A DNA stretch of 46,675 bases from Candidatus Acidulodesulfobacterium acidiphilum. Its GTDB lineage: Bacteria > SZUA-79 > Acidulodesulfobacterales > Acidulodesulfobacteraceae. Shown here in pieces: positions 24,330-31,279 of the stretch. The first letter of the stretch is position 1, and every line of letters starts with the position of its first letter. The translations under genes were made by a program, and so were the position numbers. The stretch covers positions 1-46,675 of the forward strand of contig SHMQ01000017.1 of assembly GCA_008534395.1 (NCBI GenBank). The letters run 5' to 3'. The notes below the pieces were generated by a model. That model made no database searches, was not told where the DNA came from, and was given only the letters and a program-made list of their open reading frames with translations.

Positions 24330-24654
24330 AAACGATTCCTCCGATATTATTTGTCAAAAATGTGTGAATAGTATATATTTAATTAAATATAAATGCAAGA
24401 TTAAAACTTTAATACTGCAATAGAACAACAAAAACATTCCCTAATATGCTATAATGACTAAAAAAATATTTAATAAAAAGGTGTCGGATTAATTTGGAAA
24501 AAGGTGTCAGATTAATTTTACGCACATCTTTTATATTTCATTGTTTCTTTTTGTATGCGTAAAATAAAATCTGACACCTTTTTCCGTAAAATATTTTACT
24601 TGACAATAACACGGTTGCTGACACCTTTTTAATTTTTAGCGGGGGCGGCGCTTG
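24330..24654. other. Intergenic region between DksA/TraR gene and dgt, filled by a repeat
   Basis: This 325-base gap between divergent genes has no ORF of its own. The left part (24330-24470) is A/T-rich and should hold the promoter of the DksA/TraR gene. The right part is occupied by the composite palindromic repeat listed separately. TTGACA occurs at 24600-24605 inside the repeat-derived sequence, but no matching -10 box is at proper spacing. Confidence 0.6.
24474..24636. repeat. GGTGTCAG palindromic repeat, copy 3, nested composite
   Basis: The inner arms are 24497-24524 and 24556-24585, starting GAAAAAGGTGTCAG and ending CTGACACCTTTTTCC. The loop, read on the minus strand, matches that of copy 2 (AAAAAGAAACAAT), so this copy is inverted relative to it. 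Outer half-sites lie on both sides: AAAAAGGTGTCGGATTAATT at about 24475-24494 and TGCTGACACCTTTTTAATTT at about 24616-24635. It looks like one element inserted into another and ends about 20 bases before dgt. Confidence 0.87.
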
Positions 24655-26187
24655 ATGTTAGAAGAAAGAGTATTCGATTACGGATATGCCGATAAGGAAA
24701 AAAAGGAAAAAGGGATAAGGTCTCCTTTTCAAATCGACAGGGACAGGATAATACATTCCAGCGCGTTCAGAAGGATGAGGAATAAAACCCAGGTTTTCGG
24801 AGTTTTTACGCTGGATTATTACAGGACGAGACTTACGCATTCTCTGGAAGTATCGCAAATAGCAAGAGCATTAACGTCTATTTTGAATAAAAAATACGGT
24901 TTAAGTATAGATTTAGACCTTATAGAAGCCGTTTCGCTGGCCCACGATATTGGACACCCGCCTTTCGGGCATCTCGGCGAATATATTATAAACGAAGAGT
25001 TAAAGAAAGCTACGGACTGGAAACTAGGATTCGAAGCTAATGCCCAAAATATCAGGATACTTAATTTTCTCGAAAAAAAGTTTTACGATTCAAAAAACAA
25101 TAAAATATACGGAATTAATCCTTCTCTTAAGACCATAGACGGAATTTTAAAATATAAGATGCCATATTCCCTGTCCGATAAAAACAAGCATTTTATTTAC
25201 GACGACGATATATTTATACTCGAAAAACTCCACGGAAAAGATTTTGTAAATTATCTGAGTAAATATTCCCGTTTTTTTAACGATAAAAAAAATAAAACCG
25301 CCAAAGATAAATTTTTTGAATTTTCAAGATGCATTGAATGTCAGATATTAAACGCCGCCGACGATATCGCTTATGCCACGCACGACATAGAAGACGGGGT
25401 AGAATCTAAGCTCATAAATATAGGCGGGCATTTCAAAGTAAACAAATATCTTAGAGAAAGCGACCGCTTTTTGAAAGATTCTACCGAAACAATTAATACC
25501 ATGACCGAACGGGTCGATAATTTCTTTTTTAAATTAAGAAATATTTTTAATATTCCGGAAAACAAAAAATTTGAAAAAGGGACGTATTGCTCCGAAAATA
25601 TTAAGGGAATTAAACATAGCGAAACAGCCGATAAACAAGAAGCAAAAGACCGGACTATGCATCACATAAAAGTCAAGACCGATCTTAAGGAGTTTTTTTC
25701 TAACTATATTTCAAAGTTTATTTTAAATATAGATTTAGAAGAAAGAAAAGGAGGAGTTAAAAAATTAAAATCTAAATCGGATAATTTTTTACTCGATATG
25801 CCCTTAAACTATAACGACGATTCTTACAAATATTCGTTAATTTGGAAAAACGGCGTTGATTTGGAAATAAACGCCCTCAAGCAGATTTCCTACAGTCTCG
25901 TTATGGAAAACAGGGAAATTCTTCTAAACAGATATAAAGCCGAAAACATAATAAAAAAGCTTTATGCAGTTTTTTCCGATATTAATAATATTAAACTTTA
26001 TCCCGACGACTTTCAGGAACTTTACGAGTTTGGATTTTACGATTCTTTCGGAAAAGATAAAAACGGCAATCCCGCTTTCCAAATAATGTGCGCCGATTAC
26101 ATAAGCGGCATGACCGATATGTATGCGATGAAGCTTTATTCGTCGCTATTCGATGCAAGAAGTTTTGCGGACAGCCAGCATGCCTAA
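24655..26187 (+). CDS. dgt: dGTPase-like HD-domain triphosphohydrolase
   Basis: A 510-residue enzyme of the dGTP triphosphohydrolase family, which cleaves dNTPs to nucleoside and tripolyphosphate and so controls nucleotide pools. The metal-binding HD motifs are RLTHSLEVSQIAR, LAHDIGHPPFGHLGE and ADDIAYATHDIEDG. The family start IRSPFQIDRDRIIHSSAFRRM is present. ATG 24655 is chosen; TTG 24652, one codon earlier, is possible. A G-rich stretch (24641-24649) may act as ribosome binding site. The middle (about 290-390) is charged and less conserved. Confidence 0.92.
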   Translation: MLEERVFDYGYADKEKKEKGIRSPFQIDRDRIIHSSAFRRMRNKTQVFGVFTLDYYRTRLTHSLEVSQIARALTSILNKKYGLSIDLDLIEAVSLAHDIGHPPFGHLGEYIINEELKKATDWKLGFEANAQNIRILNFLEKKFYDSKNNKIYGINPSLKTIDGILKYKMPYSLSDKNKHFIYDDDIFILEKLHGKDFVNYLSKYSRFFNDKKNKTAKDKFFEFSRCIECQILNAADDIAYATHDIEDGVESKLINIGGHFKVNKYLRESDRFLKDSTETINTMTERVDNFFFKLRNIFNIPENKKFEKGTYCSENIKGIKHSETADKQEAKDRTMHHIKVKTDLKEFFSNYISKFILNIDLEERKGGVKKLKSKSDNFLLDMPLNYNDDSYKYSLIWKNGVDLEINALKQISYSLVMENREILLNRYKAENIIKKLYAVFSDINNIKLYPDDFQELYEFGFYDSFGKDKNGNPAFQIMCADYISGMTDMYAMKLYSSLFDARSFADSQHA

Positions 26188-29422: not shown

Positions 29423-31279
29423 TTATTTTACTTTGCAGTAAAAAATTCTTTCAATGTTTCCTGTATCGAAGCTTTTACCCGTACTAAACGCTTTGAATTT
29501 TCGTTCAAAAATTTCTACACTGCCTTTATTTTCTAATGTTTGTATAATTTTATCGTCATTTATTCTTGCGTTAGAACGTCCGTCTTTCGATTCTTTGGTA
29601 TTATTGTATGATATCAGTATATGTTTGCAATCTGCGTTAATAATAAGATCTTCAAAAGCAAGTCCTGCATTTTTTAGACAGTATAGGCTTTTTATGTGCG
29701 ACCTGTCCATTTTTTTCGCTATGCCTTCAACTTTTGGTTTTTTCCATTCGGCTAAATTTTCCAAAAGATGATAAGCATCCGAATATTGGCGGGAATTGTA
29801 TGGAGGGTCAATATAAAGCACATCGCAGGAGATTTTTCTAATTAAAATATTTGCATTATTTTTATATACTTCATTATTTTCGTTATTCAAATAGTTTATA
29901 TAAGGCGTTAAAAGTTTCAAAGGTTGCAACATATCCATATTTTTACGAAATGCGTCGTAATGCCCAACCGTATTAGCGACTTTGTCAGCCGCATATATTA
30001 GAGAGCATATAAGTATATTTTTTTCGTCTTCATTTAAGGCTATTTTATCTATTTCTTCACGAATAGCCCCTATTTTTTTTGCGTTTTCTAATGAAAAATA
30101 AGTATTGCCGAAATTATTAGAAAAATAATTATCCTCATTTGCTTTTAAACTATTTAAATAGTCTATTTTTTCAGAAATATCAGTTTTAATTGTGTTAATT
30201 TCTAAAAAAGTTTTAAGACATACATAATTACTGGAAAGTATATCGTTAGAAATTATTTTGATCCCATGATTATTGAATCTTTCTCCTACAACGCCTGTGC
30301 CTGCAAAAATATCGCAAAATGATTCTATTGCACCGCATTTTTCTGAGACTATATCTTCTATAAAACCAAGCAATTTGTATTTGTTTCCAAGATATCTTCT
30401 ATTATGTAATCGGAAATAACCGGAAAGATTATTGGGTTTCGTCAGAGTATTTGTAAAATGAATTCCTGCAGCCTCATTCTTAACGTCGATATCATTTTTT
30501 TCTATACTGCTAAAATTATTTAAAGAATTAGTCTTTTCGCTTTCGAATAAATCAAATAAAGTCAGCTGGGCTCCTTCAGCAACATAACCGTCATATAACT
30601 TGTTTCTTACGCTGTTTCTTATTTTTTTATGAAAACTATAGTAATCCTTATCTCCTATTATAATAAAATCGAGTATCGGTATCCCTACTAATTCGCCGGC
30701 TTTAATAATTCTTTCCATTACTTCTTCGTCTTCTATGCTTGGCAAAGGGTTTCCGGTCGGATGATTATGCGCTATAATTATGCCGGCTGAATTTAATTGA
30801 ATCGCAGGATTAAAAACCTCTCTTGGGTGTATTAAACTCTTATCGATGGTGCCTATGCTTATAATTTCTTTTTTTATCAGTATATTTTTTGCGTTAAGAT
30901 AGAAACAAACTAAATATTCCTTTTTTTTATCTCTTAAATCGTAAGTCAGAGATAAAATGTCTTTATAATCATGGATAATAATTTCTTTCTGCGCATCTTC
31001 TTCATAAAACCTTTTAAATAACGAAATTGCCGAAACAATCTGCAAAGCTTTTGCCTGGCCGATTCCACTGATTGTTTTTAGTTCGTTTATTGTAACGTTG
31101 AGGAATTTATTGCCGTATTTTTTAATAATTTGCGATGCCAATTCCTGAACATTTTTTCCTTTTATGCCATTTCCGAGTATTATTGCTAAAAGGTCGGCTT
31201 TAGAAAGTGCTTCCGGTCCTTTTTTTATGAACTTTTCTCTTGGACGGTCGGATTTAGGCCGGTCTTTAATTTTTGCCAT
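29423..31279 (-). CDS. RadC domain fused to a D12-class DNA adenine methyltransferase
   Basis: One uninterrupted 618-residue ORF. Residues 1-226 are a full RadC (UPF0758) protein: an N-terminal helix-hairpin-helix part (ISGIGQAKALQ, 70-80) and a JAMM-type domain with H171, H173 and D184 in HNHPTGNPLPSIED, plus a candidate glutamate at E138. Residues 227-290 are a linker containing QLTLF (238-242). Residues 291-618 form a Dam/D12-type methylase with motif I FAGTG (325-329) and catalytic DPPY (491-494) in YIDPPYNSRQY. It is first in the restriction-modification cassette and lacks a visible ribosome binding site. The methylase role is solid; what RadC adds is unknown. Confidence 0.9.
   Translation of the reverse strand: MAKIKDRPKSDRPREKFIKKGPEALSKADLLAIILGNGIKGKNVQELASQIIKKYGNKFLNVTINELKTISGIGQAKALQIVSAISLFKRFYEEDAQKEIIIHDYKDILSLTYDLRDKKKEYLVCFYLNAKNILIKKEIISIGTIDKSLIHPREVFNPAIQLNSAGIIIAHNHPTGNPLPSIEDEEVMERIIKAGELVGIPILDFIIIGDKDYYSFHKKIRNSVRNKLYDGYVAEGAQLTLFDLFESEKTNSLNNFSSIEKNDIDVKNEAAGIHFTNTLTKPNNLSGYFRLHNRRYLGNKYKLLGFIEDIVSEKCGAIESFCDIFAGTGVVGERFNNHGIKIISNDILSSNYVCLKTFLEINTIKTDISEKIDYLNSLKANEDNYFSNNFGNTYFSLENAKKIGAIREEIDKIALNEDEKNILICSLIYAADKVANTVGHYDAFRKNMDMLQPLKLLTPYINYLNNENNEVYKNNANILIRKISCDVLYIDPPYNSRQYSDAYHLLENLAEWKKPKVEGIAKKMDRSHIKSLYCLKNAGLAFEDLIINADCKHILISYNNTKESKDGRSNARINDDKIIQTLENKGSVEIFERKFKAFSTGKSFDTGNIERIFYCKVK

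Follow-up and report, generated by a model that had tools for sequence, protein, structure and literature searches.

The window, by which we mean the whole stretch of DNA analyzed here (46,675 nucleotides from Candidatus Acidulodesulfobacterium acidiphilum), contains a three-gene cassette on the minus strand, flanked by purE and gmhA. The genes were found in the order RadC-D12 fusion (M1), AlwI-type nuclease (R), and CcrM-like methylase (M2), with R lying within 15 bases of M1 and M2 within 6 bases of R. Positions and supporting matches are given in Table 1, together with restriction-modification genes found downstream of RadC at other loci.

Table 1 Features of the fusion cassette (window positions) and restriction-modification genes downstream of RadC at other loci (locus, with positions of the stretch that holds RadC and its neighbor in parentheses)
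Feature	Position	Strand	Evidence
RadC-D12 fusion gene, 618 codons, very probable modification subunit M1	29423..31279	minus	Pfam, NCBIfam, PADLOC, sequence
RadC half, residues 1-219	30623..31279	minus	NCBIfam TIGR00608 and NF000642 above cut-off
UPF0758_N / helix-hairpin-helix region, residues 4-78	31046..31270	minus	Pfam PF20582
JAMM site H171-x-H173-x10-D184	30728..30769	minus	invariant in 10/10 fusions; aligned to 2QLC
QLTLFDLF, residues 238-245, putative sliding-clamp binding motif in linker	30545..30568	minus	motif conservation, consensus
D12 adenine methylase half, residues 289-618	29426..30415	minus	Pfam PF02086; PADLOC PDLC03373
Methylase motif FAGTG, residues 325-329	30293..30307	minus	sequence; conserved in alignment
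Methylase motif DPPY, residues 491-494	29798..29809	minus	sequence; conserved in fusions
AlwI-family endonuclease R, 606 codons	27587..29407	minus	Pfam PF09491 5.8e-82; PADLOC PDLC03393
CcrM-like N6/N4 methylase M2, 258 codons	26804..27580	minus	Pfam PF01555 1.9e-60
Type I HsdM downstream of RadC	L250 (3579-6277), L254, L262, L272
Type I HsdR downstream of RadC	L265, L266
Type III-like Mod downstream of RadC	L148 (505-2875)
Type II/III-like methylase downstream of RadC	L251
N6 methylase with HSDR_N domain downstream of RadC	L245 (4012-6713)

The M1 gene begins with ATG and has no internal stops; the plus strand over the same interval (29423-31279) has many. A sequence-only reading of this DNA had described, at exactly these coordinates and with the strand left unstated, a single open reading frame of 618 codons holding a whole RadC and a whole methylase. 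Searches with Pfam, NCBIfam, and PADLOC bore out that description, all of the residues and motifs that it named (H171, H173, D184, FAGTG, and DPPY) were found, and no stop separates the two domains. The domain E-values ruled out a chance open reading frame.

For the N-terminal half, the NCBIfam RadC match spans residues 12-219 above cut-off, and the Pfam RadC/JAB match spans residues 107-218 (2.5e-37). Because UPF0758_N and JAB both scored above their curated cut-offs, this half was assigned to RadC, present here as a domain of a 618-residue fusion and not as the ordinary free-standing protein. The JAMM residues E138, H171, H173, and D184 are all present, and the solved RadC domain 2QLC aligns with the JAB half through the HxH and D positions. 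The C-terminal half matched MethyltransfD12 at residues 296-530 (Pfam, 9e-36), and residues 289-617 matched the PADLOC type II methylase PDLC03373 from end to end (368 bits). FAGTG precedes DPPY, which is the alpha order and agrees with assignment to the D12 (alpha-class) methylases; the DPPY position reads DTPY in two Firmicute relatives. Among solved structures there was no match to a profile of the D12 half, and an AlphaFold model of the fusion made from five close sequences had a mean pLDDT of 43.

R covers the whole PF09491 profile (3-441 of 441) and matches the PADLOC nicking/type II endonuclease model PDLC03393 at 451 bits. M2 resembles the CcrM model yet scores below the CcrM cut-off, and by Pfam the two methylases of the cassette are of different classes. 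AlwI-family type IIS systems recognize an asymmetric site of 5 bases and cut outside it. They use one methylase per strand (PMC9799307). We conclude that M1 is very probably the modification subunit of an AlwI-family type IIS system. The words GAGTC, GGATC, and GCATC were not depleted in the window, a result that decides nothing about the recognition site, and GACGC was scarce there, as many words could be.

Two kinds of neighboring gene were also recorded. A dGTPase-family gene lies two genes from the cassette (window 24652-26187; TIGR01353 above cut-off); it resembles the anti-phage dGTPase model at a score below that cut-off, and such a gene also adjoins the cassette at loci L003 and L005. 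A LexA-like gene stands directly upstream of the D12 cassette at L093 2690-3385 (G144) and L095 4166-4804 (G211), in two phyla and with 50% mutual identity, which suggests damage-linked control in those genomes.

The fusion was found in a total of ten genomes from four phyla. Apart from the window's genome, five members of its genus and one member of a sister genus carry it at 94 to 70% identity, and the G024 copy is truncated at about residue 594 by the end of its contig. When 386 genomes were searched with the D12 half, full fusions with D12 identities of 68-70% were recovered from G142, G245, and G144, members of three further small phyla. Downstream of the fusion, G142 and G245 have the nuclease and M2 in unchanged order, and in G144 the nuclease start alone is readable near a contig end. 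Thus the arrangement that the sequence-only reading had proposed to look for, the same domain order adjoining an AlwI-type nuclease, recurs in four phyla together with shared cassette genes; the two halves are not always separate genes, and some close relatives do lack RadC. At least some of the carriers are metagenome-assembled genomes; independent assemblies show the same join, and the occurrence of the fusion in nine further genomes ruled out an assembly or annotation artefact.

In the window's genome the fusion is the sole RadC. A RadC domain of any kind was detected in 8 of 30 genomes examined from the phylum, and in no genus member that lacks the fusion. RadC here is therefore part of the cassette and not a housekeeping gene, and the idea of a core gene fused by accident was rejected for this phylum on the same count. 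Two other long RadC frames (L044 and L049) have a different N-terminal extension, common to one family, that is not a methylase.

Between fusions, dN/dS was approximately 0.1 for RadC, 0.07 for D12, and 0.3 for the linker. The HxHP, PS, and D elements of the JAMM site were invariant across the ten fusions, and the glutamate was Glu in nine and Asp in one (G245). The fused RadC halves formed one clade (100/98), which was recovered in a second RadC tree. In the D12 tree, the fused sequences enclose two unfused ones, G369 and the viral contig L099, and a topology with the fused D12 halves as one clade was rejected (p-AU 0.0185). Because the RadC halves form one clade and these two unfused sequences lie within the fused D12 group, the best fit to the trees is apparently a single fusion, after which RadC was lost at least twice.

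The state of the cassette differed among genomes. RadC-D12 is intact in both G015, in which an in-frame deletion has left R short of about 230 residues from its middle, and G001, in which R and M2 are fused down to one 151-codon remnant. In G369 the R reading frame is broken and RadC is absent, D12 and M2 being retained, and in G014 a mere scrap of D12 is left between purE and gmhA. Loci at such stages of decay include L005 7882-9021 (nuclease with an in-frame internal deletion), L012 3400-3855 (nuclease and M2 joined by deletion), and L018 1501-1695 (D12 scrap). These observations indicate that M1 can outlive R: RadC-D12 persists for some time without a working nuclease, or the losses are recent. 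Because RadC-D12 is intact beside a broken nuclease in G001 and G015, and G369 is without RadC, we conclude that the methylase can do without RadC and that RadC is not simply a regulator of the nuclease.

All ten fusions contain the motif Q[LY][TNS]LFD about 15-20 residues past the JAB domain, in a linker that otherwise varies in sequence and length. Three fusions have Tyr at position 2 of the motif, and three (G015, G016, and G024) have QLNLF; the window has QLTLF at residues 238-242. QLxLF is the high-affinity consensus for binding to the bacterial sliding clamp, and QLNLF is the clamp motif of Escherichia coli Pol V (PMC11139829). The N-terminal extension of G211, a close D12 relative that lacks RadC, still contains QLSLFD; the motif is thus tied to the methylase and not to RadC. 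Other D12 domains, those of Enterococcus (QLELF), prophage L103 (QLSLF), and the distant viral L149 (QLSLF) and L156 (QLNLF), are likewise preceded by QLxLF, and the strict motif was present in 3 of 22 viral N-extensions, when shuffles gave an expectation of 0.0085. A QLxLF-like motif directly before the D12 domain was also noted in L027; L103, L149, L156, and L027 are all without RadC. From this conservation it is on balance probable that the linker docks M1 on the sliding clamp. No restriction-modification methylase with a QLxLF-type motif was described in the literature searched.

Free RadC genes were examined in 60 genomic regions around RadC genes, mostly picked by similarity to the fused RadC, plus the viral L148 and the type I locus of G024. 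For 9 of 55 free RadC genes, the next downstream gene on the same strand was a methylase or restriction gene, mostly −4 to +13 bases away. The same was true of 1 of 193 other genes in these regions (Fisher p = 6e-6), and of 1 of 55 genes on the upstream side of RadC (p = 0.016 for downstream vs. upstream). When the three loci whose proteins had served as queries were dropped, the Fisher p was 4e-4. The 16% adjacency is not a family-wide rate, because the sample leans toward relatives of the fused RadC. L268, which has a DPPY-like motif, reads as lysyl-tRNA-synthetase-like; it was rejected as a restriction-modification locus and left out of the adjacency counts.

In some loci the RadC and restriction-modification genes overlap by 4 bases. 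At L263 the genes downstream of RadC are a DISARM DrmD-like helicase and a methylase, and Fic-family genes lie near RadC at L250 2443-3582, L253 2676-3755, and L246 5091-6233, two of these three loci also having a restriction-modification methylase. G024 has a second RadC, fused to the C-terminal third of a type I methylase (L020 643-2166; the same gene is L030 8522-10045), with an HsdS-like gene, a fragmented hsdR, and an AAA ATPase weakly similar to MADS3 as neighbors. Because the linked RadCs are scattered over the RadC tree (in which L268 is mislabeled as linked), the association with restriction-modification genes seems to have arisen repeatedly. We found no description of it in the largely open-access literature searched.

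The tie between RadC and modification or restriction that the sequence-only reading had drawn is thus supported by the fusion in four phyla, the shared cassette genes, and the free RadC genes that precede restriction-modification genes. The particular roles that it suggested for RadC (nicking, processing, or regulating the nuclease) gained no such support, and G001, G015, and G369 speak against RadC as simply a regulator of the nuclease.

The account that we prefer, with a probability of roughly 0.35, is that M1 of this type IIS system docks on the sliding clamp and that RadC serves it as an accessory enzyme at the replication fork. The D12 half is predicted to methylate adenine on one strand of an asymmetric site and M2 to methylate the other strand, and the nuclease, judging from its family, would cut or nick unmethylated DNA. 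QLTLFDLF, on the strength of its conservation, may place M1 on the clamp; so docked, M1 would follow the fork and re-methylate hemimethylated DNA before it could be attacked by the nuclease of the host itself. RadC, on the same arm, may be a metal-dependent enzyme acting there on DNA that is branched, nicked, or broken, the weakest step of the account, and would limit damage from self-restriction or fork collapse. Consistent with the whole account, both halves are constrained, all JAMM residues are kept, the fused RadCs form one clade, the cassette is shared, and the linker motif is conserved. Against it, RadC has been lost from the relatives G369 and L099 and is therefore dispensable to the methylase, three fusions have Tyr at the second position of the linker motif, and the part of RadC in DNA repair is itself disputed (PMC5512222, PMC11981726). 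A role for RadC itself as a fork-processing accessory that lowers the cost of the nuclease fits its position, its conservation, and its repeated operon link, and we advance it tentatively. A pure safety role against self-restriction does not predict that RadC-D12 persists with a broken R in G001 and G015, unless the breaks are recent.

RadC might instead be a DNA-binding or regulatory head and not an enzyme, with a role in fixing M1 to DNA or in controlling the operon. The D12 methylases of Staphylococcus, Enterococcus, Lactococcus, and prophage L103 begin with about 60-70 residues that look helix-turn-helix-like by eye from their sequences; this stretch precedes the motif and the D12 domain, in the same slot as RadC, and other D12 relatives have other heads or none. 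However, the whole JAMM site is strongly constrained, more than a mere anchor needs, and a free RadC beside restriction-modification genes cannot be the head of a methylase; we regard this explanation as possible and doubtful. It is rather unlikely that RadC is a passenger that travels with mobile and defense genes and came to be linked to the methylase with no coupling of function. Mobile elements commonly carry RadC (PMC5512222, PMC12458937), this D12 group has undergone at least two RadC losses, and the tail of the G024 RadC-HsdM fusion looks like a decay product; but RadC is constrained nearly as strongly as D12, the product of one ancient fusion has persisted in four phyla, and restriction-modification genes are strongly biased to the downstream side of RadC.

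Two enzymatic roles of other kinds were weighed. RadC has been proposed from its fusions to be a nuclease or nucleic-acid processor (PMC5512222, PMC3482391), and the fusion could on that basis be a combined modification and cleavage subunit, in which RadC cuts the unmodified, hemimethylated, or marked DNA found by the methylase. RadC-D12 is indeed intact where the AlwI-type R is broken. In the literature searched, however, no nuclease activity of RadC has been established, structure comparison shows no similarity of a RadC-like domain to nucleases (PMC11981726), some close D12 relatives are missing RadC, and free RadC genes are found in operons already equipped with a nuclease; an extra restriction nuclease is therefore unlikely. 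The resemblance of the RadC-like domain of DinG to metalloproteases in structure (PMC11981726), and the fact that the characterized JAMM relatives are peptidases, would suit a protease acting on a protein of the cassette or host, for example by removing the nuclease or releasing the methylase. Such a protease is very improbable, since RadC has no groove for a ubiquitin tail (PMC5512222) and accompanies unrelated types of restriction-modification gene with no obvious common substrate.

Returning to the fork accessory account, it may be extended, as a speculative proposal, to RadC as a dedicated partner that recurs in restriction-modification operons and in related defense operons based on methylation. 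Recruited to the clamp with the methylase, RadC would process forks or breaks where the nuclease of the cell itself meets hemimethylated or unmethylated sites, as a built-in safety device, and RadC-D12 would lock the two functions together. Clamp docking, if true, would keep the methylase in the wake of the fork, the place at which hemimethylated sites form, and the motif, if real, would show how modification enzymes of this kind keep up with replication. The wider association of RadC with restriction-modification genes, if confirmed over all genomes, would be a more important point than the fusion. RadC is widespread and has no agreed function, and the fusion and operon links narrow the search for one to the replication forks of cells with restriction systems.

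The cassette itself is a known AlwI-family type IIS system, and its RadC-methylase subunit is without an earlier description in the literature searched. With the RadC family (UPF0758; TIGR00608) the fusion shares complete UPF0758_N and JAB domains and all JAMM residues; it differs in having 618 residues rather than about 225, in being joined to a methylase, and in forming a separate clade in both RadC trees. The polyvalent proteins of conjugative elements (PMC5512222) and RadC-like DinG (PMC11981726) also combine a RadC module with a DNA-acting enzyme, whereas here the partner is a restriction-modification methylase, the cassette is chromosomal, and RadC is complete, including its N-terminal region. 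Carriage by phage or conjugative elements, which marks polyvalent proteins, does not describe a chromosomal site between purE and gmhA; the fusion was absent from the 72,556 plasmid records and 50,697 phage records searched, and from the viral contigs searched in non-exhaustive scans from a few seed peptides. Like Pol V UmuC, Pol IV, Hda, and other sliding-clamp binders, the fusion has a QLxLF-type motif in a variable arm, its binding being putative. The closest likeness in gene content is to AlwI, PleI, MlyI, BstNBI, SfaNI-like, and the other AlwI-family type IIS systems (PF09491), which agree with the cassette in genes and order and likewise combine an AlwI-family nuclease with two methylases; Firmicute plasmid systems with a D12 methylase beside an AlwI nuclease are also related. 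The second methylase of the cassette is CcrM-like and separate, whereas 700-residue methylases of the same phylum (G003, G009, G011, and G001) seem to have two D12-like domains in one chain. M1 of the cassette also departs from the AlwI-family systems in its N-terminal RadC.
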